Assembly (NCBI RefSeq): GCF_014243445.1
Contig: NZ_JACLQD010000002.1
Location: forward strand, 248,001 to 312,000
Origin: Paragemmobacter straminiformis
GTDB lineage: Bacteria > Pseudomonadota > Alphaproteobacteria > Rhodobacterales > Rhodobacteraceae
Direction: 5' to 3'
Length of the DNA stretch: 64,000 nucleotides
A model generated the notes under the pieces. It saw only the letters and a list, made by a program, of their open reading frames with translations. It did not search any database and was not told the DNA's origin. Position numbers and translations under genes: made by a program. Below are positions 4,687 to 51,804 of the stretch, piece by piece (within the stretch, counting starts at the first letter, position 1; each line of letters opens with the position of its first letter).

Positions 4687-4764
4687 GGGGGGCTGTCTGC
4701 CCCCCGGAAGGATCGCGTGCCGCGACCCTTCTCCCCCCGAGGATATTTGCGGCAAGAGGAAGCC
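4687..4764 (-). repeat. Composite intergenic repeat, copy 1
   Basis: Read on the minus strand (downstream of purF), the copy consists of a head running through CAAATATCCTCGGGGG (4733-4764), an inner hairpin (4707-4731, loop GCA) and an outer GGGGGGC/GCCCCCC hairpin (4687-4705). The inner stem is fully paired only if read as minus-strand RNA, where its odd position is a G-U wobble. The head begins 5 bp after the purF stop, so this copy is the 3' end of the purF message and may act as terminator or stabiliser. Confidence 0.85.
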
Positions 4765-4769
4765 GGGGG

Positions 4770-6233
4770 TTATTCCGCGGCCTTCATCTCGAATCCCTCT
4801 TCGATCTTGTCCGAGGGCGCGATGGGATAATCGCCCGAGAAGCAGGCGTCGCAGTATCGCGGGCTTGCGGCATCGCGGCCCGCCGCTTCGCCTGCGGCGC
4901 GGTAGAGGCCGTCGAGCGAGATGAATTTCAGGCTGTCGACGCCGATCCAGTCGCGCATCTCGTCCTCGGACATGGTGGCGGCGAGGAGTTTGGAGCGTTC
5001 GGGCGTGTCGACGCCGTAGAAGCAGGGCCATGCCGTGGGGGGCGAGGCGATGCGGAAGTGGACCTCGGCGGCGCCCGCGTCGAGGATCATGTCCTTGATC
5101 TTGCGGCTGGTGGTGCCGCGCACGACCGAATCGTCGACAAGGATCACCCGCTTGCCCTTGATCAGCGCGCGGTTGACGTTGAGCTTGAGGCGCACGCCCA
5201 TGTTGCGGATCTGTTCGGTCGGTTCGATGAAGGTCCGGCCCATGTACTGGTTGCGGATGATTCCCATCGCGTAGGGAATGCCCGATTGCTGGCTGTAGCC
5301 GATGGCTGCCGGGGTGCCGCTGTCGGGGACGGGGCAGACGAGGTCGGCTTCGACCGGGGCCTCTTTCGCCAGTTCCACGCCGATCTGGTGGCGGGTCTCG
5401 TAGACCGAGCGGCCGCCGAGGATGCTGTCGGGGCGGCTGAAATAGACATGTTCGAAGATGCAGAAGCGCGACTTGGCCGGGGCGAAGGGGCGGAAGCTTT
5501 CGACCTTGTTGCCTTCGATCACGACCATTTCACCGGGGTCGATCTCGCGGATGAACTCGGCGCCGATGATGTCGAGGCCGCAGGTTTCGGACGAGAGCGC
5601 CCAGCCGGAATCGCCGACGCGGCCAAGGACCAGCGGGCGCACGCCAAGGGGGTCGCGCACGCCGATCAGCTTGGTGCGGGTCATGGCGACGACCGAGAAG
5701 GCCCCCTCGACGCGGCGCAGGGCGTCCTTGATGCGTTCGGGGATGTTCTTCTGGATCGAGCGGGCCATCAGGTGGATGATGCATTCCGAATCCGACGAGG
5801 ACTGGAAGATCGAGCCGCGCTCGATCAGCTCGCGGCGCAAGGCGGCGGCGTTGGTCAGGTTGCCGTTATGGGCGATGGCGGCCCCGCCCATCGAAAACTC
5901 GCCAAAGAAGGGTTGCACGTCGCGGATGGCGGTGGCCCCTTTTGAGCCTGCGGTGGAATAGCGCACATGGCCGATGGCGAGCGAGCCGGGCAGGGTTTCC
6001 ATCACGTCGGGCTTGGTGAAGTTGTCGCGCACATAGCCGAAGCGGCGGGCCGAGTTGAAGCCGTGGTCGGGATCGTAGCTGACGATGCCGCCGGCTTCCT
6101 GACCGCGATGTTGCAGGGCGTGCAGGCCGAGGGCCACGAAATTGGCGGCATCGGCAACGCCGACCACGCCGAAAACGCCGCACTCCTCTTTCAGTTTGTC
6201 GTCATCGAAAGGGTGCGAGAGGAACGGGCGCAT
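4770..6233 (-). CDS. purF: Amidophosphoribosyltransferase
   Basis: First committed step of purine synthesis: transfers ammonia from glutamine to PRPP to give 5-phosphoribosylamine. The protein has 487 aa. The N-terminal glutaminase (type 2 amidotransferase) domain begins after a short propeptide with the nucleophile C18 in EECGVFG, followed by ALQHRGQE. The phosphoribosyltransferase domain carries the PRPP loop VILVDDSVVRGTTS. I place the start at the ATG at 6233 because a GGAGG sits 5 bp before it; an in-frame ATG 11 codons upstream has no ribosome site. It lies downstream of cvpA, an order also known from E. coli. Confidence 0.97.
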   Translation of the reverse strand: MRPFLSHPFDDDKLKEECGVFGVVGVADAANFVALGLHALQHRGQEAGGIVSYDPDHGFNSARRFGYVRDNFTKPDVMETLPGSLAIGHVRYSTAGSKGATAIRDVQPFFGEFSMGGAAIAHNGNLTNAAALRRELIERGSIFQSSSDSECIIHLMARSIQKNIPERIKDALRRVEGAFSVVAMTRTKLIGVRDPLGVRPLVLGRVGDSGWALSSETCGLDIIGAEFIREIDPGEMVVIEGNKVESFRPFAPAKSRFCIFEHVYFSRPDSILGGRSVYETRHQIGVELAKEAPVEADLVCPVPDSGTPAAIGYSQQSGIPYAMGIIRNQYMGRTFIEPTEQIRNMGVRLKLNVNRALIKGKRVILVDDSVVRGTTSRKIKDMILDAGAAEVHFRIASPPTAWPCFYGVDTPERSKLLAATMSEDEMRDWIGVDSLKFISLDGLYRAAGEAAGRDAASPRYCDACFSGDYPIAPSDKIEEGFEMKAAE

Positions 6234-6357
6234 TAGGCCTCCGAATCCGAGGATGGGCATGGGCACCGTTTAGTGCTTTGTCATGCGGCTGTCACCCCCA
6301 TATGCCGCAGCGCGGCGGGGCGGGGGGCGCAGGCGAGACCTGCGCCAATGCACGGTT

Positions 6358-6420
6358 GGCGGGCGCGTCAGTTGGCGGGGGCGGCCGGGGGGCGGGCGCG
6401 TCAGTTGGCGGGGGCGGCCG
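6358..6420. repeat. In-frame 33-bp tandem duplication across the cvpA stop codon
   Basis: A 30-bp segment at 6391-6420, holding the last codons of cvpA and its TGA, is repeated exactly at 6358-6387, a period of 33 bp (11 codons). The second copy therefore carries a spare in-frame TGA just beyond the real one. It looks like a recent tandem duplication by slippage in G/C-rich sequence. Confidence 0.9.
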
Positions 6421-6988
6421 CCGCGTCGGTCGTCGTGCCACCGCAGACCTTGGTCAGATCGTTGTAGCGTTCGACGATCCAGCCGGGGGCGTCGCTGGGG
6501 ATCTGCGCGTCGAGCTGGTCTTGCAGCGAGGCGAAGATCTTGGCCGAGCGGCTTTCCTCGACCATCGGGATGGCTTCGGAGGCGACGGCGCGGTCGTAGA
6601 CGATGAAGGCGACGGCCACCAGAAGCACGCCGCGCACCGCCCCGAACAGGAAGCCGAGCCCCTGGTCGATGCCGCCGAGAACCGATTTGTGGATGGCCGA
6701 GGAGAGAAGCGGCGTGAAGAGCGAGGCCACGATGAGCGCGAGGGCAAAGACGATGGCGAAGGCCGCGACGATGGACAGCTCGCAGCTGTCGGAGAGGAAT
6801 TTGCCGACGACGGGCAGTTCCTTGACCAGCGGCTGGACCGATCCGGCAAAGAGGAAGGCCACCACGGCGGCACCGATCCAGCCGACGATGGCCATGCCTT
6901 CGCGCACCAGACCCCGCGCATAGGCAAGGATGGCCGACAGCACGATGACACCCGCCACGACCGCATCGACCAAGGTAAAGCCTTCCAT
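6401..6988 (-). CDS. cvpA: CvpA-family membrane protein
   Basis: Integral inner-membrane protein of 195 aa with four hydrophobic segments (about residues 5-25, 30-50, 68-92 and 105-128) and a short acidic/alanine-rich cytoplasmic tail. The family is named for colicin V production in E. coli and its molecular role is unsettled, with links to envelope stress and purine supply. The gene sits between radA and purF on the same strand, matching the cvpA-purF pair of other proteobacteria. The tail AAAAPAN is rich in alanine, and its last codons are duplicated beyond the stop. Confidence 0.93.
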   Translation of the reverse strand: MEGFTLVDAVVAGVIVLSAILAYARGLVREGMAIVGWIGAAVVAFLFAGSVQPLVKELPVVGKFLSDSCELSIVAAFAIVFALALIVASLFTPLLSSAIHKSVLGGIDQGLGFLFGAVRGVLLVAVAFIVYDRAVASEAIPMVEESRSAKIFASLQDQLDAQIPSDAPGWIVERYNDLTKVCGGTTTDAAAAPAN

Positions 6989-7008
6989 CGCACTCTCCCG
7001 TTTCGGCC

Positions 7009-8367
7009 TTAACCGGCCCCGAACATCTCACCGACAAAGGCCGTCAAATCCGGCATCTGGCGCAGTTTCATGCCTGTATCCGCCCCGAGCTTGGACCGTT
7101 CGGGCGCGACCGCCTGTGAGAAACCAAGTTTCGAGGCCTCTTTCAACCTGTTTTCGGTCTGGCCGACAGGGCGCAACGCTCCGGAGAGCGAGATTTCACC
7201 GAAAAGCACCATATCGGGCGGCAGGGCCACATCCTCGCGCGCCGACAGAAGGGCGGCGGCGACCGCCAGATCGGCGGCGGGTTCGCTGACGCGCATGCCG
7301 CCCGCGACGTTCAGGAACACGTCAAGCCCCGCGAAGGGAATGCCGCAGCGCGCCTCGAGGACGGCGAGGATGGTCGAGAGGCGGCCGGAATCGAGGCCGA
7401 CGACCGTGCGCCGCGGCGTGCCGAGGTTCGAGGGCGCGACAAGGGCCTGAATTTCGGTCAGCACGGGGCGGGTGCCTTCGATTCCGGCGAAAACGGCCGA
7501 TCCCGGCGTGGTCTGGCCGCGATCCGACAGGAACAGCGCCGAGGGGTTGGTGACTTGTGCCAGCCCGTTTCCGGTCATCTCGAAGACGCCGATCTCGTCG
7601 GCGGGGCCGAAGCGGTTCTTCACCGCGCGCAGGATGCGGAACTGGTGGCCGCGCTCGCCCTCGAAGTAAAGGACGGTGTCGACCATATGCTCGACCACGC
7701 GGGGGCCTGCGATCTGCCCCTCTTTGGTGACATGGCCGACAAGGATGACCGCCACGCCGCGCCGTTTGGCAAAGGTGACAAGTTCATGCGCCGCCGCGCG
7801 GACCTGGCTTACGGAACCGGGGGCGGCATCGACGGTGTCGAGCCACATGGTCTGGATCGAATCGATCACCGCAAGGTCGGGGCGTTCGGCATCGAGCGTG
7901 GTGAGGATGTCGCGCAGCGATGTTTCGGCGCCAAGCGAGACGGGCGCATCGGCAAGGCCAAGTCTTTGTGCGCGCATGCGGACCTGCGCGCTCGCCTCCT
8001 CGCCCGAGATGTAGAGGCATTTCAGGCCACGGCGGGCAAAGGCGGCGGTGGCCTGCAAGAGCAGGGTCGATTTCCCGATCCCCGGATCGCCGCCCACAAG
8101 GATGGCCGAAGCGGGCACGAGGCCGCCGCCCAGAACGCGGTCAAGCTCGTCAAGGCCCGAGCTTGCGCGGGGGGGCGGGGCTTCCTCGGTCGCGAGGTCG
8201 GTGAGGGGGATGGTGCGTCCCTTGGCGCCGAGGGGCTTGGGGCCGCTGGACAGGGGCGCTTCCTCGATGATCGAATTCCAGGCGCCGCAGGCATCGCATT
8301 TGCCGGCCCATTTGCGATGGACGGCGCCGCAGGCGGTGCAGGTGAACTGGGGGGTATTCTTGCTCAT
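7009..8367 (-). CDS. radA: DNA repair protein RadA (Sms)
   Basis: RecA-related branch-migration ATPase that helps process recombination intermediates; 452 aa is typical. An N-terminal C4 zinc finger is visible (C10, C13, C24, C27). The ATPase core has the Walker A GGDPGIGKST (about 88-97) and the family-specific KNRFGP motif. The C-terminal half is the Lon-protease-like domain without the serine-lysine dyad of a real protease. Its stop is 20 bp before the cvpA start, so radA, cvpA and purF are probably co-transcribed. Confidence 0.97.
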   Translation of the reverse strand: MSKNTPQFTCTACGAVHRKWAGKCDACGAWNSIIEEAPLSSGPKPLGAKGRTIPLTDLATEEAPPPRASSGLDELDRVLGGGLVPASAILVGGDPGIGKSTLLLQATAAFARRGLKCLYISGEEASAQVRMRAQRLGLADAPVSLGAETSLRDILTTLDAERPDLAVIDSIQTMWLDTVDAAPGSVSQVRAAAHELVTFAKRRGVAVILVGHVTKEGQIAGPRVVEHMVDTVLYFEGERGHQFRILRAVKNRFGPADEIGVFEMTGNGLAQVTNPSALFLSDRGQTTPGSAVFAGIEGTRPVLTEIQALVAPSNLGTPRRTVVGLDSGRLSTILAVLEARCGIPFAGLDVFLNVAGGMRVSEPAADLAVAAALLSAREDVALPPDMVLFGEISLSGALRPVGQTENRLKEASKLGFSQAVAPERSKLGADTGMKLRQMPDLTAFVGEMFGAG

Positions 8368-8402
8368 GCCCGAGCCTGAACAGAAAGGGCGTGCCGCTTC
8401 AA

Positions 8403-8462
8403 GGGGCGCGTCACGGGGTGCTTCAAGGGGCGCGTCATGGGGTGCGTCACGGGGCGCGTCAC
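8403..8462. repeat. Five tandem 12-bp units, GGGGYGCKTCAY type
   Basis: Five consecutive 12-bp units (8403, 8415, 8427, 8439, 8451), each close to GGGGCGCGTCAC, fill the gap between the small membrane protein gene and radA. On the minus strand each unit contains TGA, and the stop codon of the upstream gene lies in the last unit. The period is a multiple of three, so copy-number change would keep a stop codon in frame. Confidence 0.88.
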
Positions 8463-8830
8463 GGGGTCAGCATGGCAATGAGGATGGCGAAGGGCAGGGC
8501 GAAAAGCACCGTCCCCGCCAGCCAATGGCCCCACATCGGCACCGGCCATTCGGTCAGCACATGCCGCCCCCATGCTAGAACCAGCCAGATCCAACCGAGG
8601 ATCGAGACATATTGCGAGATCTGCCGCGCCTCGGGCAGGGAAAACGGGACAGGGGCGAGCAGCCAGAGGCAGTAGAGCAGCCCCGACACGGCGATCAGCG
8701 GGGCGCCCCGCACGGACTTGCGCCAGCTTGCGATGGTGGCCACGGTGATGGCAACGGGGGTGAGATAGAGCAGGAAAATGACGGTCAGCGATTGCGCGGC
8801 GATCAGGGCGCGGTCGACCAGCGGCTCCAT
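8459..8830 (-). CDS. Small multi-pass membrane protein, function unknown
   Basis: A 123-aa protein with four predicted hydrophobic helices (roughly 12-32, 42-60, 72-88 and 98-120), separated by short loops with few charges. I do not recognise a named family. Its ATG is immediately after the mlaF stop (8831-8833) with no gap, so it is translated in the same operon as the lipid-transport genes mlaE and mlaF. That context suggests an envelope or lipid-related role, but this is inference only. The stop codon lies within a 12-bp tandem repeat. Confidence 0.75.
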   Translation of the reverse strand: MEPLVDRALIAAQSLTVIFLLYLTPVAITVATIASWRKSVRGAPLIAVSGLLYCLWLLAPVPFSLPEARQISQYVSILGWIWLVLAWGRHVLTEWPVPMWGHWLAGTVLFALPFAILIAMLTP

Positions 8831-9577
8831 CTAGCGGACCGAGGCAATGGGGCCGTCGGCGCGGCCGTGGATGAACTGTTGCAGGTAAGGGTCTGGTGCG
8901 GCGTCCATTTCCGCGACCGGACCTGTCCAGTGGATCACCCCGTCCTGCAACATGGCCACACGGTCGGCGATGGCGCGGACCGAGGACATGTCATGCGTGA
9001 TGGTCATGGCGGTGGCCCCCATCTCGGTGACGATCTCGCGGATCAGGGCGTTGATGACGCCGGACATGATGGGGTCGAGGCCGGTGGTCGGTTCATCGAA
9101 GAAGATGATCTCGGGGTTCGCGGCGATGGCGCGGGCTAGGCCCACGCGCTTTTGCATGCCGCCCGACAGCTCGGCCGGAAACAGGTCGGCGGTTTCGGGC
9201 TTGAGGCCGACGCGGCGCAGCTTCTCGATGGCGATCTCGCGCGCCTCGTGCTTGGGGCGTTTGAGGCTGCCGCGCAGCAGGCGGAAGGCGACGTTCTCCC
9301 AGACGCGGAGCGAATCGAACAGCGCGCCGCCCTGGAACAGCATCCCGAACCGGGCGAGAAAGGCGTCACGGTCGGCGCGGGACACATCCTGCCCGTCGAG
9401 CGTGATGGTTCCGGCATCGGGTGTGACAAGGCCGAGGATGCATTTCAGCAGCACCGACTTGCCCGTGCCCGACCCGCCGATGATGACCATGCTTTCCCCT
9501 TTGGGAATGGTCAGGTCGACCCCGCGCAGCACGCGGTTGGCGCCAAAGGATTTGTGGACGGCGGACAGCGTGATCAT
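8831..9577 (-). CDS. mlaF: Phospholipid-transport ABC ATPase MlaF
   Basis: ATPase subunit of the Mla system, which moves phospholipids between outer and inner membranes to keep outer-membrane asymmetry. The 248-aa protein shows Walker A GGSGTGKSV (about 34-42), the signature LSGGMQKRVGLARA, Walker B IIFFDEPTTGLD, and a switch histidine in ITHDM. GMLFQGGALFDSL is typical of the Mla/Ttg2A subgroup rather than nutrient importers. It overlaps mlaE by 4 bp (ATGA). The periplasmic subunits mlaC and mlaD are not in this window. Confidence 0.94.
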   Translation of the reverse strand: MITLSAVHKSFGANRVLRGVDLTIPKGESMVIIGGSGTGKSVLLKCILGLVTPDAGTITLDGQDVSRADRDAFLARFGMLFQGGALFDSLRVWENVAFRLLRGSLKRPKHEAREIAIEKLRRVGLKPETADLFPAELSGGMQKRVGLARAIAANPEIIFFDEPTTGLDPIMSGVINALIREIVTEMGATAMTITHDMSSVRAIADRVAMLQDGVIHWTGPVAEMDAAPDPYLQQFIHGRADGPIASVR

Positions 9578-10356
9578 GAGGTGAAGAACACCTCGGTCAG
9601 CAGGTAGTTGGTGGCGAGGATCAGCACCGAGGCACCCACCACGGCGGCCTTGGTCGCAGCGCCGACGCCCTGCGCGCCCCGGCCCGAATTCATGCCGTGA
9701 TAGCAGCCCATGATGGCCACGATGAAGCCGAAGGCGGCCCCTTTCCAGAGGCCGCTGACAACATCCCAGCTTTCAAGGAAATCATGGGTGTTCTGCAGAT
9801 AGGTCGCGGGGTTGAAGCCCAGCCGGTTCACCCCCACCAGCCAGCCGCCGGCAATGCCGATGGCGTCGCCCACGCCGACCAGAACCGGCACGGCAAGGGT
9901 GGCGGCCAGAACCCGGGGCAGGGCAAGGTATTTCAGCGGGTTGGTCGAAAGCGTCACCAGCGCGTCGATCTGCTCGGTGACCTTCATCGTGCCGATCTCG
10001 GCCGCGATGGAGGATGCCACGCGGGCCGCGACCATCAAGCCGCCCAGCACGGGGCCAAGCTCGCGCACCATGCCGATGGCGACGATCGAGGGGACGGCGG
10101 CCTCGGCATTGAAGCGCGCGCCGCCCGAATAGATCTGCAAGGCCAGCGCCCCGCCGGTGAACACCGCCGTCAGGCCCACCACCGGCAGAGAGAACCAGCC
10201 GATCTGCATCAGCGCGGTCAGGAATTCGCGCGGGTAATAGGGCGGGCGGAACAGGTGGCTCACCACCTGCACCGCATAGATCGCGATGCGCCCGACAAAG
10301 GCAAGAAGCGCCAGCACCGGCCTGCCGATGGCCGCAAGGGGCGCGGTCAGGATCAT
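9574..10356 (-). CDS. mlaE: Phospholipid-transport ABC permease MlaE
   Basis: Inner-membrane permease of the Mla lipid transport system, 260 aa, of the MlaE/YrbE family (about five hydrophobic segments). Family features include [18 protein letters not shown], the [24 protein letters not shown] stretch (shortened in part here) and EQIDAL. The ATG at 10356 overlaps the alr stop (ATGA) and the gene's own stop overlaps mlaF, so alr, mlaE and mlaF are translationally coupled. Confidence 0.94.
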
Positions 10357-11399
10357 GCCTGCCCCCCCGAATAGCGCCGCGCATAGCGCGGGCCGAGCGC
10401 GGTCAGGATCTCGTATCCGATGGTGCCCGCGATATCGGCCAGATCGTCGACCCCCTGCGCCGGGCACAGGATGTCGAGGCTGCGCGGCACCTCGGCCAGA
10501 TCGGTCACATCGGCGGTGATCAGGTCCATCGAGACGCGGCCGATCATCGGCACGGGCTGTTCGCCATCCCAAAGCGGGGTGCGCCCCGACAGGCTGCGCG
10601 GCAGCCCGTCGGCATAGCCCGCAGCGACCGTGGCCACGACCGAGGGCCGCGTGGCGGTCCAGGCGCAGGCATAGCCCACGGTCTCGCCCGGCTCGACCCT
10701 GCGCGTCTGGATCACGGGAAGCGAAAGGCGCAGCACCGACTGGCCGGCAAAGGGCCGCCCGCCGTAAAGCCCTATGCCGGGGCGGGTCAGGTCGAAGTGA
10801 TAGGCCGGGCCAAGCAGGATGCCGCCCGTCGCAGCCAGCGAGCGCGGGATGCCGAGCCCGTCGGTCATGGCGTGGAAATTCGCCAGTTGCAGCGGGTTCA
10901 TCGCATGGTCGGCTTCGTCGGCACAGGCGAGATGCGACATCAGCATCTCGGGCTTGGCCGCCAGCACGATGGGGGCGATGGCCTGCCATTCGGCGGGTTC
11001 GATGCCAAGGCGGTTCATGCCGCTGTCGAGCTGGATGCCGAAAGGGTGGCCCGAGAGGGATTCGAAATGCCGCGTCACCTGCTGGAGCGAATTCAGCATC
11101 GGCGTCAGGTCAAGGTCGCGGATCATATCGGCATCGCCCGCCATGTGACCGCCAAGCACGTTGATCTGCGGCCCCGGTCCAAGGCTTTGGCGCAGGGCGG
11201 CGCCTTCCTCGGTCATGGCGACAAAGAACCGCCGCGCCCCCGCTTCGGCCAGCGCACGGCCCACGCGGGCGGCGCCGAGGCCGTATGCATCGGCCTTGAC
11301 CACGGCGGCGGTCTGCACGCCGGCGGCTGACAGCCGGTCAAGGGCCCGCCAGTTTGCGGAAATCGCGTCGAGGTCGATGGAAAGGGTCGCTTGTGCCAT
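10353..11399 (-). CDS. alr: Alanine racemase
   Basis: PLP enzyme that converts L- to D-alanine for peptidoglycan; 348 aa. The PLP lysine is K35 in VVKADAYG, and the second catalytic base, a tyrosine, is in AAGYADG in the C-terminal barrel domain. MIGRVSMD matches the conserved region near the active site entrance. The ATG at 11399 directly precedes the [10 protein letters not shown] start typical of the family; the reading frame is open further upstream but lacks family similarity there. It heads the alr-mlaE-mlaF-radA-cvpA-purF run. Confidence 0.95.
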
Positions 11400-11462
11400 G
11401 CGGGGGGTTTTCGGCAGGGGCGCGCGCGGGGTCAAGTCAATTCTGGCCTTGCCGCCCAAGAA

Positions 11463-11544
11463 GGGGGGCTTTGCGCCCCCCGCCGCTGCCTGCGTGCCGC
11501 AGCCAGCGCCTCCCCCCGCAGGATATTTCGGGCAAGAGGAAGCC
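11463..11544 (-). repeat. Composite intergenic repeat, copy 2
   Basis: On the minus strand the head (11510-11544) is followed by an inner hairpin with loop GCA (stems 11484-11494 and 11498-11508, one mismatch) and an outer GGGGGGC/GCCCCCC hairpin (11463-11481). It lies in the 352-bp gap between alr and an SDR gene, pointing away from copy 3 in the same gap. In the minus direction its hairpins come shortly before the alr start, so it could also be part of an alr leader. Confidence 0.85.
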
Positions 11545-11622
11545 ACCAAGGTTTTGTTAACCTTTCCCTGCGACGCTGGAGGCGCGGTACAGGGAGGGAT
11601 CCCGATGACCGTGCAAGGGGAA

Positions 11623-11659
11623 GGCATCCCGCGCTGGACGGAAGCGCCCGCGGGATGCC
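11623..11659. other. Perfect 11-bp inverted repeat between two composite repeat copies
   Basis: GGCATCCCGCG (11623-11633) and its exact complement (11649-11659) are separated by 15 bp. The element lies in a 130-bp stretch between composite repeat copies 2 and 3. A nearby AAGGTT/AACCTT palindrome is at about 11549-11565. An ATG at 11605 with a GAGGGAT in front opens a frame that runs into the antisense of the next gene, so I do not call a protein. This could be a small structured RNA or an operator. Confidence 0.5.
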
Positions 11660-11673
11660 GGACTGCTTGCCAT

Positions 11674-11741
11674 GCTTCCTCTTGCCCCAAATATCCTCGG
11701 GGGGTGAGGGGCGAAGCCCCGAGGGGGGCAGACGGCCCCCC
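11674..11741 (+). repeat. Composite intergenic repeat, copy 3
   Basis: Plus-strand order: head (11674-11704), inner GGGGC-GAA-GCCCC hairpin (11708-11720), outer GGGGGGC-AGACG-GCCCCCC hairpin (11723-11741), then CTTT. It ends 10 bp before the stop of the minus-strand SDR gene and points toward it, in inverted orientation to copy 2. The outer loop AGACG is almost identical to the minus-strand loop of copy 1 (AGACA). Confidence 0.87.
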
Positions 11742-11751
11742 TTTGGCCGGA

Positions 11752-12642
<891 letters not shown>

Positions 12643-14142: not shown

Positions 14143-14646
14143 TCCTGAACCCCTGTTGGCTGGCCTCGGCCCCGTTTTTCGCGCGACGCGCGTCACGGGC
14201 CCGAGCGCCCTTTGTTAGACGAAGCCACGGCGGGCGCAATCTGGGTAAGTCTGTGGACAACTGCCCGTGAAAGCGGCGCGACGCTGCCTTGCCCTTATGG
14301 TGCCACAAGATGTCGGCTTTTCAAACAGCCGAGCCACGATATGAGGCGGGTTTTTCGCGCCATCTGGCCGAGTTATCCCGAACCATCCACAGCCCCCCAT
14401 CCGTTTGGCTTGGTTAACGTGGCAGTTTGGCAACGAGACGCCGGGCGGAAAACCGCATGTCGTCGGGCCGCTGCCCGTCTGCCCCCAAGGCGCGCCCTTG
14501 GGAAACTCTTGCCCGCGTGAACGGGGCCGCAGGACGTGCTGCTTTCATACTCGCGCAAATATCCTCGGGGGAGGCGACGCGGCCTTGCCGCGTCGGCAGG
14601 GGGCGGAAAGCCCCCTTGCGCGGCCGGTGCCGCAAAGCGGGCGGGG
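14143..14646. other. 504-bp intergenic region upstream of dnaB
   Basis: No convincing gene. It contains a site one base away from a DnaA box (TGTGGACAA, 14252-14260), a weaker one at 14383-14391 (two mismatches to TTATCCACA), a small palindrome TCGGCT/AGCCGA (14313-14332), a CCCAAGG/CCTTGGG palindrome (14484-14502) and composite repeat copy 4 (14541-14615). The part near 14143-14300 must hold the dnaB promoter. The DnaA-like sites are too few and imperfect to call an origin. Confidence 0.55.
14541..14615 (+). repeat. Composite intergenic repeat, copy 4
   Basis: Plus-strand head (14541-14572, with the variant start GCTTTCATACTCG), perfect 9-bp inner hairpin CGACGCGGC-CTT-GCCGCGTCG (14575-14595), outer GGGGGC-GGAAA-GCCCCC hairpin (14599-14615). 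It lies 31 bp beyond the minus-strand pyrE stop, pointing toward pyrE. The inner stem differs completely from those of the other copies but still pairs perfectly. Confidence 0.87.
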
Positions 14647-15367: not shown

Positions 15368-15376
15368 GCGGCGGGA

Positions 15377-26609: not shown

Positions 26610-26620
26610 CCTGCCTGCCG

Positions 26621-26643
26621 CTTCATCCTTGCCCAAATACTCG
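26621..26643 (+). repeat. Composite intergenic repeat, copy 5 (head only)
   Basis: CTTCATCCTTGCCCAAATAC matches the head of the composite repeat, 12 bp after the stop of the molybdopterin-binding gene, but the G-run and hairpins are absent. A decayed or partial copy. Confidence 0.65.
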
Positions 26644-26689
26644 AAACGCCACGCGCGGGTCAGGGCGGGCACGGCACAGGACGGGCGGG

Positions 26690-27975: not shown

Positions 27976-28030
27976 GAGGGGGGCTTTCCGCCCCCCTCAC
28001 CCCCCGAGGATGTTTGTCCGAGTATGAAAC
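27976..28030 (-). repeat. Composite intergenic repeat, copy 6
   Basis: Minus-strand head (27999-28030, GTTTCATACTCG start as in copy 4, with AAACATCC for AAATATCC) and a 9-bp outer hairpin GAGGGGGGC/GCCCCCCTC (27976-27998); no inner hairpin. It lies 9 bp after the stop of the alanine-rich protein gene, between it and the convergent fpr. Confidence 0.85.
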
Positions 28031-28069
28031 GGAAAACGCCGCGCAGGGGGAACCCGCGCGGCGTTTTCC
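28031..28069. terminator. Long bidirectional terminator hairpin
   Basis: A perfect 14-bp stem (GGAAAACGCCGCGC, 28031-28044, with 28056-28069) and 11-bp loop. It has A/T-rich outer ends, so runs of T follow the stem in both directions. It separates the plus-strand alanine-rich gene from the minus-strand fpr stop at 28085. Confidence 0.85.
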
Positions 28070-33548: not shown

Positions 33549-33597
33549 GAAAGGGCGGGGGGCGTAAAGGGCGGGGGACGTAAAGGGCGGGGGGCCA
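33549..33597. repeat. Three tandem 16-bp G-rich units
   Basis: AAAGGGCGGGGG followed by GCGT or ACGT is repeated three times (from about 33550, 33566 and 33582), running directly into the hairpin of composite repeat copy 7. Related GGGCCGG runs precede it from 33528. Likely slippage product of the G-rich repeat itself. Confidence 0.75.
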
Positions 33598-33638
33598 GCC
33601 CCCCGCACCCCCCGGAGTATTTGCCGCAAGGATGAAGC
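33587..33638 (-). repeat. Composite intergenic repeat, copy 7
   Basis: Outer hairpin GCGGGGGGC/GCCCCCCGC (33587-33606, loop CA) and head (33607-33638, CTTCATCCTTGC start and AAATACTCCGGGGG on the minus strand). It lies 6 bp past the minus-strand P450 stop, in the same relation to P450 as copy 1 to purF. Confidence 0.85.
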
Positions 33639-42591: not shown

Positions 42592-42778
42592 TCGTACCTC
42601 TCCCGAATCTTTTCCGTGACGGAACCCTATCCGCCGCTTGGTTAACAAAACGCTATAGCGGCACGACCGGCCTGCCGCAATCAGCCGCTGCGGCTTTGCG
42701 CCCCGTTGCGGCGAGGGGGCTGGTCAAAACGCCTCAATTCGGGAATAGTCTGGCGCAAAATCGGCGTCAGGGACGGGA

Positions 42779-43378: not shown

Positions 43379-43441
43379 CCACGGGCGCGAAAGGGCACTT
43401 TCCGACGCGGGGAATGCATCGGAAAACGCGGCTGATTTCGC

Positions 43442-45529: not shown

Positions 45530-45559
45530 GGCAGCCTCGCGCGGGTTGATGGCGCAGGA

Positions 45560-45614
45560 GCGGGGGTTTCACACCCCCGCGCCCCCGTGGGATATTTGGG
45601 AAAAGAAGAAGCGG
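45560..45614 (-). repeat. Composite intergenic repeat, copy 8, inside the transporter operon
   Basis: Outer hairpin GCGGGGGT/ACCCCCGC (45560-45580) and head (45581-45614) with a diverged CTTCTTCTTTTCC start and AAATATCCCACGGGGG. It fills the gap between the permease stop (45631) and the ATPase start (45529) within one operon, so it is unlikely to be a full terminator. Confidence 0.82.
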
Positions 45615-45630
45615 GCGGAACGGGACATGG

Positions 45631-46794
45631 TCAGTCCTTCATGCTTTCCTCGCGCAAGCCGTCGGCCAGCAGGTTCAGGCCGAGGACAAGGCTCATCAAA
45701 GCCAGCGCGGGAACCACGGCGGGGTGGGGCGCTATGGCGAGCAGGCGGCGGCCGTAGTTAATGGTCGACCCCCAGTCGGGGGATTCGGGTGTCACGCCGA
45801 GGCCGAAGAAGCCGAGCGTGCCGAGCAGGATCGTGGTGTAGCCGATGCGCAGGCAGAAATCGACGATCAGCGGCCCGCGGGCATTGGGCAGGATCTCCCA
45901 CAGCATGATGTACCACGGCCCTTCGCCCCGGGTCTGGCCGGCAGCGACATAGTCGCGTGTCTTGATGTCCATCACCATGCCGCGCACGATGCGGAACACG
46001 CCGGGCGAGTTGACGAAGACGACCGAGACGAAGACGTTCAGCACGTTCGGGTCCATCGACCAGATGCCAAGCGGATCGGCGTTGAAGGCAAGGCCGGAAT
46101 AGGCCCAGAGCCCGATCACCAGCACCGCGCCCACGTAGAGGTTGCGCTGTTTCGGATTGGTGAAGAAGCGCGAGTTGAAGAGGATGGTCAGGAACACCAC
46201 CGGAAAGATGAAGAGGATGGCGGCCAGCACCGTGGGAATCCATGTCACGCGGATTTCGGGTGTGACGAGCAGGTAGAAGAGCAGGATCACCGGGAAGGCC
46301 AGAACGAGGTTCGAGCCGAAGCTGATCGACGTGTCGAGCTTGCCGCCGATGTAGCCTGCGGGCAGGCCCAGCGTGATGCCCACCATGAAGGCCACCACCG
46401 TTGCGGCGGGGGCGATCTTCAGCACCTCGCGCGCGCCCATGATCACGCGGGAGAACACGTCGCGCGCCAGATGGTCGCCGCCGAGCAGGTAGAAGGCGCC
46501 TTCGACCCCCTTTACCGGGCTGCCGGGCAGGGCGTTCTTCATGCCCGAAACCTGAACCAGCGGGTCATGGGTGATGATCATCCCCGCGTAGCAGGCGACA
46601 AAGACCCAGAACATCACCATGCCGAAGCCGATCATGCCCACGGGGCTGTCGAAGATGCGCCCGTAAAGGCCGAGGCGGCGCTTGAGCGCGAAGCTGACGG
46701 CGAAGAGTGCCGCGAGCGAGAGCCAGACCGGCACCAGCCGCAGCGCGATGGCCGCGATGATCTGGCCCCATGTCATCATGTCCTGCATCGTCAT
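45631..46794 (-). CDS. ABC transporter permease, DppC-like, with central insertion
   Basis: Inner-membrane permease, 387 aa against about 300 for typical DppC. The usual core is present: GADHLARD-like GGDHLARDVFSRVIMG, and the ATPase-contact loop AAGQTRGEGPWYIMLWEILPN (shortened view). Between AFPVILLFYLL (about 165-177) and NVFVSVVFVNSPGVFRIVRG (about 265) an extra stretch of roughly 90 residues contains two more hydrophobic helices. That may alter the channel or substrate range. Gap of 7 bp to the dppB-like gene. Confidence 0.93.
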   Translation of the reverse strand: MTMQDMMTWGQIIAAIALRLVPVWLSLAALFAVSFALKRRLGLYGRIFDSPVGMIGFGMVMFWVFVACYAGMIITHDPLVQVSGMKNALPGSPVKGVEGAFYLLGGDHLARDVFSRVIMGAREVLKIAPAATVVAFMVGITLGLPAGYIGGKLDTSISFGSNLVLAFPVILLFYLLVTPEIRVTWIPTVLAAILFIFPVVFLTILFNSRFFTNPKQRNLYVGAVLVIGLWAYSGLAFNADPLGIWSMDPNVLNVFVSVVFVNSPGVFRIVRGMVMDIKTRDYVAAGQTRGEGPWYIMLWEILPNARGPLIVDFCLRIGYTTILLGTLGFFGLGVTPESPDWGSTINYGRRLLAIAPHPAVVPALALMSLVLGLNLLADGLREESMKD

Positions 46795-46801
46795 TTCCCC
46801 C

Positions 46802-47887
46802 TTACGCCAGCCGGATGCGCGGGTTCAGGAAGACGTAGCCGATGTCCGATATCAGCTGCGTCACCAAGACCACGAAGACCGCCACCACCGAACAGCCAAG
46901 CAGGGTGTCGATGTCGTTGTTGCCCGCAGCCTGAACCAGTGTCCAGCCGAAGCCTTTGTAATTGAACAGTGTTTCCGAAATCACCACCCCGTTCAGCAGC
47001 CAGGGGAATTGCAGCATGATCACGGTGAAGGGCGCGATCAGCGCGTTGCGCAGCGCGTGGCGCATGACGACCTGTTTGAAGGACACGCCCTTGAGCCGCG
47101 CGGTGCGGATATATTGCTGGGTCATCACCTCGGTCATGCTCGCCCGTGTCATGCGGGCGATGTAGCCGATGCCGTAAAGCGCGATCGTGGCGACCGGCAG
47201 GGCAAAGTTCCAGAAGGTGATGTCGTCCATCGCGCTGGTGGCGGTGCCCTGGAACAGGGTCTTGCCCGAGATCCAGCCCCAGTCGGCAAGGAGGGGCGAG
47301 ATGCCCGCCGTGGCCGAGGCCAGCATGGCGATCAGGATCACGCCCGAGACGTATTCGGGTGTGGCCGTCGAGGCGATGGCGAAGGTCGACAGGACGCGGT
47401 CGGTGCGCGAGCCTTCGCGCATGCCCGACAGCACCCCGAGCAGCAGCGAGGTCGGCACCATCACGACCATCACCCAGAGCATCAGCCAGCCCGTGGCGCC
47501 GACCGACCGGCCCAGCACCTCGGAGACGGGTTGCTTGAACACGGTGGAATAGCCCCATTGGCCCTGCAACACGCCGCAATAGGTGGGAGCGTCCTCGGGG
47601 GCCATGCCGCTTGCGATGCAGCGCCCCCGCGTCGTGCCGTCATCTTCCAGCCGCACCCATCCCGGGGCCACGCCGATCCATTGCGCATAGCGCAAGAGGA
47701 CCGGCCCGCCGTGGCCGTTCTCTTCCAGCCAGCTTGCCACGGCGTCGTCCGCCATCCGGACCGAAGCCTCGGATTTGGCAAGCTTTTCAAGGTTCGGCGG
47801 CAGGTTCGTCATGTAAAAGACGATGAAGGTCAGCGCGAGCGCCGTCAGCAGCATGACGCCAAGTCGGCGCAGGACGAAAAACAGCAT
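46802..47887 (-). CDS. ABC transporter permease, DppB-like
   Basis: Inner-membrane permease of 361 aa with six or so helices. The N-terminal LRRLGVMLLTALALTFIVFYM is typical of DppB/OppB, and the ATPase-contact loop is TARLKGVSFKQVVMRHALRNALI. A long periplasmic loop (about 30-130) contains two cysteines (RGRC, TYCG) that could form a disulfide. Second gene of the transporter operon, after the binding protein. Confidence 0.94.
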   Translation of the reverse strand: MLFFVLRRLGVMLLTALALTFIVFYMTNLPPNLEKLAKSEASVRMADDAVASWLEENGHGGPVLLRYAQWIGVAPGWVRLEDDGTTRGRCIASGMAPEDAPTYCGVLQGQWGYSTVFKQPVSEVLGRSVGATGWLMLWVMVVMVPTSLLLGVLSGMREGSRTDRVLSTFAIASTATPEYVSGVILIAMLASATAGISPLLADWGWISGKTLFQGTATSAMDDITFWNFALPVATIALYGIGYIARMTRASMTEVMTQQYIRTARLKGVSFKQVVMRHALRNALIAPFTVIMLQFPWLLNGVVISETLFNYKGFGWTLVQAAGNNDIDTLLGCSVVAVFVVLVTQLISDIGYVFLNPRIRLA

Positions 47888-47994
47888 GGGTCACCCTTTC
47901 CCGAAGGGGGATATGCACTTTGTGGCAGGCACTTGGGTGCGGTTTGTCAGTGAATCACGGCCAGCACCGCACCGCGGACGGGCCTGTCGGAGTG

Positions 47995-48018
47995 CGGCGC
48001 GCGTGAACCCGCGCGCCG
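47995..48018 (-). terminator. G/C hairpin between binding-protein and permease genes
   Basis: Perfect 9-bp stem CGGCGCGCG/CGCGCGCCG (47995-48003 with 48010-48018), about 16 bp past the binding-protein stop and in the 146-bp gap before the permease. Such a hairpin commonly limits read-through or protects the upstream message, so more binding protein than permease is made. Confidence 0.7.
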
Positions 48019-48033
48019 CCCTTTGCATGGGCC

Positions 48034-49683
48034 TCAGGCTGCGGCGATCGACCACTTGTAGTGGTGATGCTCGAAGGTCGCGTGCATGTCCGCGCCCTTC
48101 ACCTTGGGATCGAAGTGGCGGTAGATCGAGCGCCAGTAGGGCTGAACCATCACGCCCTGCTCTTGCATGATCTCTTCCAGACGCTGCATCACCTTGGAGC
48201 GTTCGCCCGCATCGGCGATGGACAGCGCCTTGGCCAGCGTCTCGTCGAACTCGGCGTTCGAGAAGGCGCTTTCGTTCCAGGCTTCACCCGAGCGGTAGGC
48301 CAGCGCAAGGATCTGCACGCCAAGCGGGCGCATGTTCCATTCGGTGGCCGAGAACGGGTATTTCGTCCAGTCGTTCCAGAAGGTCGAGCCCGGCAGGACC
48401 GTGCGCTTGATCTTGAGGCCCGCATCGCGGATCTGGGCGGCGACGGCGTCGCAGGTCGCGGCCTGCCAGCTGTCGTCGAGCGAGATCAGCTCGAACTCGT
48501 AATCGCCCTTGCCCGCATCCTTGACCTTTTGCGCGCCGGCGGCCGGATCAACCGTCAGCGGAGGCAGGGCGAAGTATTCGGGGTGGATCGGGCAGACATG
48601 GTGGTTTTCAGCCGGAGTGCCGAGGTTGGAATAACCCAGTTCCAGCACGACCTTGTTGTCCACGCATTGCACAAGGCCGGTGCGGACGTTCACGTCCTTG
48701 TATTCCTCGGCCATCTGGTTGAAGCGCACGGCGAGGGTGGCTGCGGTGACCGCTTCCGACTTGGTCCAGCCCAGCGCGTCGAACTGTTCGATGAAATCGC
48801 CGGTCGACTGGTAGGTGGCGTCAAGCTCGCCCGCGGCGGCGGCGTTGACTTCGGCCGAGGGATCGGTGCCGAGGTCGGTGTATTCGATGCGGTCGAGGTA
48901 CGGGCCGCCATAGACAGCCGTGCCCCACCAGGTGTGGTCGGCGTTCTTGACCAGATGCGCCTTGACGCCGACTTCCACGGTTTCCGGCAGATAGGGGCCG
49001 GTGCCGGGGGTCTTGGTCGGGTCGCCGTTGTCATAGGACTTGTGGACGACCGCGGCCGGATAGTCGGCAAAGCCTGCGATCAGCGAGCAGTCGGGGGCCG
49101 ACAGCACCAGCTTGACGGTCGTGGCGTCGACGACGGTGATCGCGCCGTCGCGGGCGGCTTTCTTGTCGGCGTCGATCAGGAAGGTGCAGCGACCCGCCAT
49201 CGAGTTGCCTTCGACCGACTGGTCGCACCAGCGGGTGATGTTGTTGGCCACGTCATCGGCGGTGAAATCGTCGCCGTTGTTCCATTTGACGCCCGAACGC
49301 ACTTTCAGCGTGTATTCGGTCGCGTCGGCATTGGCCTCCCAGGATTCGATCAACATGCCGCGGATCGAACCGTCGTTGTTGTATTCGACAAGGTATTCCA
49401 GCCAGCCGCGGGTGACGTTGGCGATCTGCGACCAGTCGGCGGTGCGCGGGTCTTTCAGGCCCTTGATCTCCATCGACATGCGCAGCGTGCCGCCTGCCGT
49501 CGGGGTGTCTTGCGCCATCGCGGGCGCGTCGAGGCCGAGCAAGCCGTAGGCGGCAACCGCCGAAACGCCCAGCGCGGTCGAGCGGGCCAGGAATTCGCGG
49601 CGCGACAGCGTGCCGGCGCGGACTTCCTCGGCGTGCATGATGGCGGCCGGATGGATCGTGGCCCCCTTGGTATCGTCTAGCAT
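48034..49683 (-). CDS. ABC transporter periplasmic substrate-binding protein, Tat-type signal
   Basis: A 549-aa binding protein of the family 5 extracellular (peptide/nickel/opine) type. The signal has the twin-arginine motif SRREFL (about 27-32) preceded by an unusually long N-terminal extension of 26 residues and followed by a hydrophobic segment ending APAMA. The mature domain shows [24 protein letters not shown] and other family features (shortened views). It delivers substrate to the permeases downstream. GGGAGA is 6 bp before the ATG at 49683. The ligand is unknown. Confidence 0.93.
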
Positions 49684-49937
49684 GTGGGTCTCCCTGTGTG
49701 GCAGTCGGTTTATTCTTGTTCTGGCGGTCTCGCGCTTGGGTTGTGCCGCGACGATCTGGCCCGCGAGGGCAGAAAACGCAGCCAAGGCAACAGTCCGAAG
49801 CGAATAGCGCAGACTCAATAGCGCATCTTTTTCGCGCTTCCGTCAACGCTTGGTTTTACCGCCCGATGGCCTGTTTGCGACAGAAAGCGGCGCTTATCTT
49901 CCAGTTGCAACCGGTTTCGCAGGGCAACCGCCGCGAT

Positions 49938-50780
49938 TCACGGTGCCCGGCGGAAGGCGCTGGGGGATTTTCCGGTCAAGTGCTGGAAGGCGCGGGTGAA
50001 ATAGGCCGCCGAAGTGAAGCCGAGGCTCTCGCCGATCTGTCCGACGGGCAGCTTGGTTTCCGACAGAAGCTTGCGCGCCTCGAACAGGCGGCGGTCCTGC
50101 AGCAGGTCGATGGCCGAACGCCCGCAGGCAAGGCGGCAGCAGCGCGTCAGGTGGGTCGATGTGACCCCCAGCGCTGCCGCCATGTCGCCCACGCCCGCGC
50201 CGCTGCGGAATTCGCGTTCCAGAAGCGTCGTGTAGCGCGCGACAAGGCGCTTGGCCGCATCGGGCTTGGTCTGTTCGGGGGCGGCGCGGGTCACCTGTCG
50301 TTCGAGCCAGACACCCAGCAGCCCCAGATAGTTGCGCGCCGCGCGGTCCGATGCCGGAGCCTCGGACAGCATCTCGCGCTGGATCATGTCGATCAGCACG
50401 TTCAATTCCTGTTGGGCGTGAACCTCGCGGATGCGCAGGATCTGCGGCGTCGCGGGCAGGGGCATGGCGGGGTCGCGTCCGAAAAAGACCGCCGTGCCAA
50501 AGGTTTGCGGGCCGACCTCGAATCCGTGCATCACGCCTGCGGGTATGAAGACCGCGTTGTGCGCCGTATAGCCGCGGGTCGATCCGGCCAGCGTGATGCG
50601 GCCCTGTCCCTTGGTGAACCACAAAAGCAGCGGCTCTGACAGGCTGCGCATCGCCTCGACCCGCCAGCGCCCGCCTGCGGCAAGGCGCGGAATGGCCACA
50701 AGGCGTGGCTGTGCAACGGGCGGGGCGCTGCCCGCCTCGGGTTTCGGGGCGTCTGTTTTGGTCGCTGCTCTGCGCGTCAT
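49938..50780 (-). CDS. AraC-family transcriptional regulator
   Basis: A 280-aa regulator: N-terminal cupin-like sensing domain (about 25-110, with FIPAGVMHGF) and C-terminal double helix-turn-helix (about 180-277, GVGDMAAALGVTSTHLTR and IGESLGFTSAAYFTRAFQ). It lies 254 bp upstream of the transporter operon on the same strand, so it probably controls that operon and may sense its substrate. Inference from position. Confidence 0.9.
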   Translation of the reverse strand: MTRRAATKTDAPKPEAGSAPPVAQPRLVAIPRLAAGGRWRVEAMRSLSEPLLLWFTKGQGRITLAGSTRGYTAHNAVFIPAGVMHGFEVGPQTFGTAVFFGRDPAMPLPATPQILRIREVHAQQELNVLIDMIQREMLSEAPASDRAARNYLGLLGVWLERQVTRAAPEQTKPDAAKRLVARYTTLLEREFRSGAGVGDMAAALGVTSTHLTRCCRLACGRSAIDLLQDRRLFEARKLLSETKLPVGQIGESLGFTSAAYFTRAFQHLTGKSPSAFRRAP

Positions 50781-50866
50781 CGGAAGGGTTCCCTTCTCTC
50801 GTTAACGAATCATAACGCGACCCGAGGGGGGAACCCAAGAAGAATAAGCGCCAAGCCCTTCGATTC

Positions 50867-51736
50867 TCAGGGCAATGTTACCTCGCGCCACGCTTTCATG
50901 CGTGACCTGAACCAGGTGCGCTGCCGTTTGGCATATTGGCGCGAGGCGATCTTGGCCGCCGCGACCGCCGCATCCAGCGTCACCTCTCCGGCCAGAAAGG
51001 CCATGAGTTCGGGCGCGCCGATGGCCCGGCCCGCGGCGGCAGACGGGTTCCAGTGCGGCCGCTCGGCCCGCGCCTCGTCAAGCGCGCCTGCGGCCATCAT
51101 CGCGTCGAAGCGGCGGTCGATGCGGTCGTTGAGCCAGCCTGCATCGGGGCGCAGGACCAGCGCCTCGGCGCGGTGCAGCGGCAGAAGCGGGGCGCCCCCT
51201 TCGGCCTGCCAGTCGGCAAGGCCGCGACCCGTGGCGCGCAGCACTTCCCAGGCCCGTTGCACCCGGGCGGGGTTGGCAAGGTCGGTCTTTGCCGCCGTGG
51301 CCGGGTCGAGTTCGTCGCGCAGCGCGCCAAAGCCTTCCGTCTGCCGCCGTCTGTCGGCCTCGGCGCGCACACCGGGCGGAACGGGCGGCACCTCGGCCAG
51401 ACCTTCGGTGAGGGCGCTGAAATAAAGCCCCGTGCCGCCGACGATCACCACGGGCCGGTCAAGCCAGCCTGCCACCTCGCGCAGCCAGTGGCCCACGGAA
51501 TAGGGCTGGTCGCGCCCGACATGGCCGTAAAGCGCATGGGGCAGGGCGGTCTCGTCCTCGCGCGACGGGCGCGCGGTCAGCAGACGCCAGCAGCCATAGA
51601 CCTGAAGCGCGTCGGCGTTCACCACCACGCGCCCGTCGCGCGCCGCGATCTCCATCGCCAGCGCCGACTTGCCGCTTGCGGTCGGCCCCGCGATCAGGAC
51701 CGGCGCTTCCCGTGATATGCCCGCGATGCCGGCCAT
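50867..51736 (-). CDS. miaA: tRNA dimethylallyltransferase
   Basis: Adds the isopentenyl group to A37 of tRNAs reading U-starting codons; 289 aa. The P-loop is [11 protein letters not shown], then DALQVYG, GGTGLYF and RAIGAPEL. The C-terminal [13 protein letters not shown] is typical. The ATG at 51736 has a weak GGGG eight bases upstream; a TTG at 51760 is a possible earlier start inside composite repeat copy 9, which forms the leader. Confidence 0.94.
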
Positions 51737-51743
51737 TGTCCCC

Positions 51744-51804
51744 GCTTTCACACTGCCCAAATATCCTCGGGTGAGGTCCGGAGAGGGCAGAGGGCCCTCT
51801 CCGG
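51744..51804 (+). repeat. Composite intergenic repeat, copy 9, in the miaA leader
   Basis: Head (51744-51776, GCTTTCACACTG start) and a perfect 11-bp hairpin CCGGAGAGGGC/GCCCTCTCCGG (51778-51804). On the minus strand the hairpin comes first and the head ends 8 bp before the miaA ATG, so the element is in its 5' leader and close to the ribosome site. Confidence 0.82.

Follow-up and report, generated by a model that had tools for sequence, protein, structure and literature searches.

A dispersed repeat and an RNA-like gene in the window

The window analysed here, a stretch of 64,000 nucleotides (nt) from the 4.12-Mb genome of Paragemmobacter straminiformis (G000, below the own genome), carries nine copies of a short intergenic repeat. 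Two of these, placed head-to-head at 11529 (-) and 11688 (+), enclose a conserved RNA-like gene at 11583 to 11741, consisting of a hairpin (A), a short seed and a second hairpin (B). An initial annotation had described the nine copies, all of which were located again at the same places, but had missed the gene between the two. Judged from sequence comparisons, the repeats are probably, although by no means certainly, the cognate sites of a family of guide-like small RNAs. Gene calls throughout come from our own codon-usage script.

In the own genome, an element starts with a pyrimidine-rich prefix of 14 to 16 nt, which is followed by AAATA(TCC or CTC), a G-run, an optional inner hairpin that differs in sequence from copy to copy, and an outer hairpin of the type GGGGGGC-loop-GCCCCCC. 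This order of parts is as constant as had been claimed. The other seven heads of the window are at 4749 (-), 14556 (+), 26635 (+, head only), 28016 (-), 33623 (-), 45598 (-) and 51758 (+), and no protein gene accounts for the element, in agreement with the initial annotation. Its statement that stems vary while pairing holds is borne out by the base pair bordering the outer G/C stem on its outside, which is standard in 70 of 82 copies (CG 47, AT 19, TG 3, TA 1). Against the statement, the 60 nt after the head exceed dinucleotide shuffles in stability only by a modest margin (mean z -1.57; z < -2 in 37% of the 82). The head core CAAATATCCTCGGGG, a 15-mer searched with up to two mismatches, is matched at 149 places of the own genome (74 forward, 75 reverse) and at none when reversed; a 32-nt head profile has 26 matches in 400 kb, compared with 0 to 1 in Markov-shuffled or reversed sequence. 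Chance is excluded by these controls. The single head shared by all copies, as it had been described, thus belongs to a real element, but it is not one head: the heads form genome-specific prefix dialects, nearly all of which are matched by an RNA seed. A recurrent insert, CCATCGGTTC...GAACCGATGG, with a T-arm-like loop, forms the inner hairpin of several copies (G443 183636, G445 40450, L212, L331, L335, L338, and the place in G450 that corresponds to window 33623).

Within the RNA-like gene, hairpin A occupies 11584 to 11612 (+), with a predicted transcript start at about 11583, and the seed GCAAGGGGAAGG at 11613 to 11624 (+) is complementary to the prefix CTTCCTCTTGC with one G.U pair. Hairpin B, recognised by folding, extends from 11623 to 11659 (+). 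The left head and its hairpins occupy 11463 to 11544 (-), with the head and an anti-prefix read on the plus strand at 11521 to 11544, while the right head, with the prefix CTTCCTCTTGCCCC, AAATATCC and hairpins, spans 11673 to 11741 (+) and forms the 3' end of the gene. A CtrA-like box, TTAA-N7-TTAA, lies upstream at 11546 to 11560 (+), where the window copy reads CCAA-N7-TTAA and is exact only in its second half. The neighbours of this core are a short-chain dehydrogenase/reductase (SDR) gene and an alanine racemase gene.

The pattern for such cores came from four head-to-head pairs that enclosed a conserved stretch. Among the loci searched it occurs at six places, the original four plus L131 and L254, all of them flanked by head-to-head elements whose prefixes are similar. 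Three places in the own genome match it perfectly and a fourth differs by two mismatches; a covariance model, trained partly on own-genome cores, recovers all four. These cores are flanked by four dialects, namely CTTCCTCTTGCCCC (the window core), TTTCATACTCG, CTTCTTCTTTTTCC, and CTTTCATCCTTGCCC with AAATACTC; a core had been expected for the TTTCATACTCG dialect, although this was not recorded in advance, and one was found. Several core loci recur beside the same neighbour genes across genomes, as seen by eye in about 200 nt on each side; some of these neighbours we take, from short N-terminal sequences, to be acs-like and GST-like.

Hairpin A was compared in 61 distinct cores with a readable right head, a requirement that places L292, L300 and L334 outside the set; L282, a duplicate of L280, was dropped here and from the scoring of dispersed copies. 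The patterns used gave no readable core in L303, L307, L329, L333, L342, L343, L345, L350, L366 and L369; in L370 the matching stretch turned out, on reading, not to be a core RNA. The G/C hairpin is missing on one side in L278, L281 and L294. Eight of the nine pairs of hairpin A are standard in 61/61 cores and the ninth in 59/61, and three of them change on both sides (GC/AT/GT; GC/CG; AT/GC/TA). In 60 of these cores, the upstream region was also aligned. The best TTAA-N7-TTAA match falls at -65 or -66 in 59 of the 60, with ties resolved towards -65, where the mean is 5.55 of 8 positions versus 1.98 in shuffled sequence. A weak CAnnCT follows 11 nt beyond the box (A 76%, T 71%). Going by the CtrA consensus, we take the box to be a putative CtrA promoter element. 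The CtrA regulon in Rhodobacteraceae controls gene transfer agents and competence, and the box suggests a link to that regulon.

Covariation of seed and prefix within core loci

The seed comprises the 9 to 12 nt directly after hairpin A and before hairpin B. Each of positions 30 to 38 is paired with the right prefix in 60 or 61 of the 61 cores, using three to six standard pair types. To illustrate, the first seed position shows CG in 29 cores, AT in 17 and GC in 15, and the seventh shows TA in 30, AT in 22, GC in 6 and CG in 3. Pairing then drops to 57, 55 and 28 of 61 at positions 39 to 41. The cis match averages 11.25 of 12 pairs, where 10,000 permutations reached 9.10 at most. For the 26 distinct seeds, pairing scores 27.2, and the highest score among 20,000 permutations is 20.5. 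In 55 of the 61 cores a left anti-prefix could be recognised, which forms 9 to 14 of 14 Watson-Crick pairs with the right prefix. In the case of G450, the orthologous core (L284) differs from the window core by a matching substitution in all three parts, left anti-prefix, seed and right prefix.

The same pattern might be produced by a DNA-binding protein of evolving specificity that reads the prefix, the core being a third binding site with no role as RNA. The seed does resemble the left anti-prefix, the locus is an inverted repeat, and genome-wide site dialects are known from DNA uptake sequences. Nevertheless, hairpin A covaries as a structure, and one seed position has G opposite T in 51/61 cores and opposite C in 8/61, as in pairing that tolerates G.U and not in identity of sites. 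In addition, the CtrA-like and -10-like boxes at fixed spacing suggest transcription. We consider a protein of this kind quite improbable as the explanation.

Dispersed copies follow the seeds of their own genome

Copies outside the cores carry genome-specific prefixes in the seven same-genus genomes compared. Every copy (n=78) was scored against the seeds of each genome, leaving out four core-flanking heads (two in G000, two in G444), two G441 matches judged false, and three copies missed by the pattern (window 26635+ and 51758+, own-genome 227649+). The mean score is 25.6 against the own genome's seeds and 19.9 against those of the others, with the own seeds better in 76/78 copies; G443 and G455 have seeds in common, and this first comparison does not set one against the other. 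The true genome labelling was the best of 5,040 permutations of the labels, a procedure that ignores relatedness.

Copy 4, at 14541 to 14615 (+) with the prefix TTTCATACTCGC, and copy 6, at 27978 to 28031 (-) with TTTCATACTCGG, have the dialect of core L278, and copy 8, at 45562 to 45613 (-) with CTTCTTCTTTTCC, has that of L279. Copy 1, at 4687 to 4764 (-) with the prefix CTTCCTCTTGCC, AAATATCC and both inner and outer hairpins, has the dialect of the window's own core. Copy 7, at 33589 to 33638 (-), has TTCATCCTTGCGG and AAATACTC and belongs to the dialect of L281, which copy 5 (26620 to 26655, +), a head only with CTTCATCCTTGCCC and AAATACTC, resembles. Copy 9 has the prefix TTTCACACTGCCC and lies at 51743 to 51797 (+) between divergent called genes; neither it nor copy 5 is among the 78 scored. 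Elsewhere in the own genome, the copy at C9:330932 (+) has the prefix ATTTTCTGTC, a dialect of G371 and G444 but of no own core found, and is possibly a relic or an import.

Copies and cores also co-occur. With a strict copy pattern, for which the reversed control gave zero in all 38 genomes, copies were found in 17 of 22 core-positive genomes and in none of 16 core-negative ones. Nine congeners have from 5 to 160 strict matches per genome; G440, a same-genus genome of 1.5 Mb and 96% completeness, has neither cores nor copies that were detected. A variant, AAATACCT, taken from the heads of G144, G294, G299 and G306, was predicted for these four and for G292 and G304. It was found in three of the six, with 42 copies in G144, 33 in G306 and 8 in G299, and in none of 14 other genomes. 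L291 and L315 are among the cores that have few or no same-dialect copies in the sampled stretches.

Orthologous sites and turnover

Copy 8 lies in the gap between two genes that we take, from Pfam assignments and the operon order, to be yejE-like and yejF-like. Of 19 same-genus genomes searched, an ortholog was read in 16, and a copy is present at the site in all 16. Its hairpin half is nearly constant in most of them, two having an inserted inner hairpin, while the prefix fits the seeds of its own genome (24.3 versus 18.6 for others; own better in 13/16), a mean reached by 0 of 20,000 permutations. Two of the three misfits are explained by cores read later: the core content of G453 and G449 was predicted in advance, and both cores matched.

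At a second site, read in six genomes, orthologs have 57% of the prefix and 89% of the hairpin in common, whereas copies from the same genome share 75% and 65% (prefix p 0.0003). The corresponding values at the yejE/yejF site in four genomes are 65% and 94% for orthologs and 73% and 64% for same-genome copies. The prefix is thus genome-like and the hairpin site-like, and the tag is therefore renewed to a greater extent than the other parts of the element.

Closer comparisons give a picture of stability with some change. G450 (82 to 90% identity) keeps six of the nine copies of the window, including copy 6, copy 9 and, as a head-like stretch, 26635. Those at 4749 and 14556 (copies 1 and 4) are absent from the orthologous places, which are not clean empty sites, and 33623 (copy 7) is swapped for another dialect and hairpin. 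Between G443 and G455, which are 97.7% identical, 6/6 shared sites are kept, with no polymorphic site in the shared stretch.

These data bear on the possibility that the RNA acts in cis only and the copies are passive. Seed and prefix would then form an intramolecular stem, as the fold of L023 allows, and dispersed copies would be mobile or recombined 3' ends that owe their dialect to descent alone. Close neighbouring elements do lie head-to-head in 26 of 27 cases, and congeners do differ, two of the nine window copies being absent in G450 and one swapped. Against this, the prefix at orthologous sites takes on another dialect and the hairpin remains site-like; simple insertion would carry the hairpin along. 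Moreover, the transposase of repetitive extragenic palindromic (REP) elements, RAYT (Y1_Tnp, PF01797), has 0 matches in the own genome and occurs in 18/198 genomes of the family; other transposases were not searched for. Passive copying of this sort strikes us as unlikely. A RAYT-driven REP was rejected for want of any Y1_Tnp in the own genome.

Placement relative to genes

The initial annotation held that all copies point in the same direction. This is true of the internal order of parts, but with respect to the genes the two orientations occur about equally often. Among the 78 copies, 28 are sense and 27 antisense in codirectional gaps, 20 are in convergent gaps and 3 in divergent gaps, where the available gaps of 60 to 2,000 bp number 520, 112 and 199, respectively. 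Two of the three own-genome copies missed by the seven-genome pattern sit in divergent gaps, so that divergent placement is undercounted in this tally; divergent gaps are poor in copies, yet not free of them. In other genera, 155 copies at loci picked for containing a match comprise 41 sense, 52 antisense, 41 convergent and 9 divergent ones, with 3 inside genes and 9 at edges. AAATA lies 17 to 34 nt past the stop codon in 20/28 sense copies, and 39 to 63 nt past it, with the hairpin abutting the stop, in 20/27 antisense copies. Sense and antisense copies score alike for seed pairing (25.5 vs 25.1, p 0.87). The 3' side of tRNA genes was uninformative as a test of orientation, none of 19 tRNAs having an element within 150 bp.

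Four head-to-head pairs that lack a core (L064, L106, L112 and L114) keep a TTAA-N7-TTAA-like box in the loop, as judged by eye and in two cases with a mismatch, a picture that resembles loss of the RNA with retention of its promoter.

Alternatively, the RNAs would be trans-acting antisense small RNAs (sRNAs) that regulate mRNAs with the prefix in untranslated regions, the adjacent hairpin stabilising or ending the transcript. A seed of 10 to 12 nt between two hairpins resembles sRNA seeds, copies immediately follow stop codons or separate the genes of an operon, and the 3 copies in 199 divergent gaps, with the two own-genome ones missed, compare with 20 in 112 convergent gaps. However, only the sense copies place the prefix in an mRNA, and antisense copies are as frequent (27 vs 28) and pair as well. 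The equality of sense and antisense pairing argues against a purely mRNA-directed sRNA and for recognition at the DNA level or blind to strand, and we regard regulation of this type as doubtful.

The orientation counts bear equally on the proposal that the elements lack an RNA partner and are simply intrinsic terminators or REP-like repeats whose head is conserved. They do lie near gene 3' ends and do have G/C hairpins. The fixed orientation expected of a terminator was not found, with 28 versus 27 copies in the genus and 41 versus 52 in other genera, and the sequence after the hairpin is mixed, with no consistent U-tract among the 32 copies listed: TT follows in some and G in others, and in the hairpin-to-head direction ATATTT or ATTTTT occurs at a distance. 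The orientation counts together with the dialect matching led us to reject a terminator-only reading. The initial annotation had named plain terminators with unrelated heads as the case that would speak against a distinct element, and the matching of heads to seeds contradicts it. Given also the co-occurrence of copies with cores and the lack of RAYT in the own genome, terminators or REP-like repeats without an RNA partner are very improbable.

Distribution in genomes, plasmids and phages

The initial annotation had taken similar sequences to be common in Rhodobacteraceae, and the head-core pattern (two mismatches) indeed occurs in 292/292 genomes of a sample of the order, with counts from 1 to 149 of which the low ones are near the control level. 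Exact head-core matches, among the matches listed (at least 80, in named records), are all in Rhodobacteraceae or in bins named to a higher rank. One sample had the core RNA in 18/19 same-genus genomes, 12/18 others of the family and 1/24 other genomes. Across the family, it was found in 192 of 246 sampled genomes, mostly with 1 to 5 each and one with 7. A sample of the class (n=241) gave 11 core matches, and 8 of the genomes lie outside the family. Six of these eight (L308, L362, L363, L365, L367 and L368) have a hairpin A that could be read. In L308, L362, L363 and L368 the seed visibly matches an adjoining GGATATTT or AAATAT head; in L365 and L367 no such match can be seen.

Plasmids also carry the motif. 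A 49-nt query matched 46 of 72,556 PLSDB records at E 1, some of which look like chance matches to coding sequence. A 271-base query gave no match at E 1e-5, probably because the conserved part is short. The hairpin A anchor is present in 17 of the 18 plasmid loci read, some of which come from closely related records and are not independent. Seed-matching heads are visible by eye in 8 of these 17, in addition to a left head in L372: right heads in L373, L376, L378 and L388 (shuffle p 0.005-0.07), and left heads in L376, L377, L380, L388, L389 and L390 (by eye, no p). In 9 of 15 annotated plasmid loci (L374, L375, L377, L378, L381, L372/L382, L384, L385 and L390), repA lies 302 to 606 bp from the hairpin A motif, on either side; of the six initiators tested, five match RPA (PF10134) and one RepA_C. 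The motif may mark the replication region of small plasmids, and the neighbourhood of repA hints at a link to replication. Outside the Alphaproteobacteria, hairpin A with seed-matched GGATATTT or AAATATCC heads occurs on plasmids of Legionella anisa (L373) and Legionella longbeachae (L380). Phages gave no match, and viral contigs gave 0 exact matches to one hairpin A variant.

A probable guide-like RNA and its proposed sites

At the level of sequence, the comparisons above show an RNA-like family whose hairpin A covaries, a seed and prefix that covary in cis, copies that match the seeds of their own genome, and prefixes that switch at orthologous sites. The RNA genes lie, as a rule, between two head-to-head heads, and the transcript would start at hairpin A, downstream of the CtrA-like box. 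The seed would pair with the prefix before AAATA(TCC/CTC/CCC/CCT), in cis with its own 3' head and in trans with the dispersed copies. The core RNA would accordingly need to be transcribed and to find its partners in trans, a conserved protein would bind the near-invariant hairpin A, and recognition of the site would be at the DNA level or otherwise blind to orientation. The switching of prefixes in place suggests active renewal of the sites or strong selection on each of them. Most likely, if tentatively, an RNA-guided process would overwrite or renew the sites, by homing or conversion, and so cause their concerted evolution. A role for the G/C hairpin in marking or insulating sites beside gene ends is a guess of ours.

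Several observations weigh against this interpretation. The label permutation takes no account of relatedness, and for five of the 78 copies the fit to the own seeds is poor, with scores of 17 to 20 (G000 230931+ and 236446-, G444 181611+ and 187495-, G441 74363-). Five of the 22 core-positive genomes have no strict-pattern copies, and the AAATACCT pattern recovers copies in two of these five, plus G306, that is, in three of the six genomes for which it was predicted. At the yejE/yejF site, the third misfit, in G454 with its one detected core, is unexplained, and the prefix effect in four genomes is marginal (p 0.06). The stable positions of the RNA loci and of many sites do not favour continuing mobility. 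When the transcript predicted for the window is folded to minimum energy, its prefix is paired with the prefix's own G-run side and not with the seed. Covariation in cis is by itself no proof of action in trans, because seed and prefix can pair inside the RNA. Finally, it is from sequence that we infer the transcript, the protein partner and the effect at the site.

A bolder version of the proposal, which we put forward tentatively and hold to be possible, is that of a new class of RNA-guided system, in which a near-invariant effector-binding hairpin is joined to a fast-evolving seed. Such a system would recognise, and renew or home into, a handful to more than 100 chromosomal sites of its own dialect, guide and sites evolving in concert. 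It would recur beside the same genes in many Rhodobacteraceae, and also on small alphaproteobacterial plasmids, often within about 600 bp of repA, and on Legionella plasmids. If the seed acts in trans, this would be a chromosomal bacterial RNA whose guide co-evolves with many dispersed sites, and a family of G/C-rich intergenic repeats in Rhodobacteraceae would be explained by it. It would offer a testable RNA of about 100 to 160 nt, with a 29-nt hairpin as bait for the protein partner, and a clear natural example of short sites evolving in concert with the RNA that recognises them.

Comparison with known systems

No Rfam 15 family scored above its gathering threshold in a scan of 11400 to 11760 and six core loci. 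The only matches with E < 0.1 in the Rfam scans were sub-threshold ones to preQ1-II, on the hairpin-to-head strand (-) of core-flanking copies (window 11671-11756; L324:616-703). With 24.2 and 34.8 bits, against a gathering threshold of 47, their identity as preQ1-II riboswitches was discounted as chance. The only above-threshold Rfam match in the window, away from the core, is Cis52_sRNA (RF02647, 62 bits) at 47047 to 47225 (+), antisense inside a called gene at 46802 to 47887 (-). In agreement with the initial annotation, which knew of no described function, none was found for the repeat or the core RNA in the literature searched, from which most subscription papers are missing. Four strings of one hairpin A variant occur in no text of that literature, and the core RNA is apparently undescribed. 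We have not filed the element under REP/RAYT, terminators or an Rfam family because defining features of these were looked for and not found.

REP elements and bacterial interspersed mosaic elements (REP/BIME), or REPINs with RAYT, are likewise short intergenic hairpin repeats in many copies, with inverted pairs and few members in divergent gaps, but here the own genome has no Y1_Tnp and a dialect prefix of 14 to 16 nt is matched by a seed. DNA uptake sequences of Neisseriaceae and Pasteurellaceae are short genome-wide sites with lineage dialects, often inverted near gene ends; they differ from the present elements, which have fixed adjacent hairpins and a matching RNA gene. naRNA4/REP325 of Escherichia coli is a noncoding RNA made within a repeat pair and proposed to contact dispersed cruciform repeats. 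It differs in that it is not known to have seed dialects.

Trans-encoded sRNAs of the Hfq type share with the core RNA a short seed between hairpins and complementarity of seed and target, which was found here. The sense orientation expected of mRNA targets was not, antisense copies being as frequent and as complementary, and the sites, from a handful to more than 100 per genome, are orientation-blind and have genome dialects that co-evolve with the seed. Co-evolution of guide and sites of this kind is, to our knowledge, a feature of neither REP elements, sRNAs nor transposon guides. In the IS110 bridge RNA and other guides of mobile elements, a stretch of RNA is complementary to the ends of its own element and to dispersed sites. 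Unlike these, several of the cores described here recur beside the same genes, the window core lying between the SDR and alanine racemase genes; as in these, the RNA is complementary to the ends of its own element, in the right head and, through the anti-prefix recognised in 55/61 cores, on the left.

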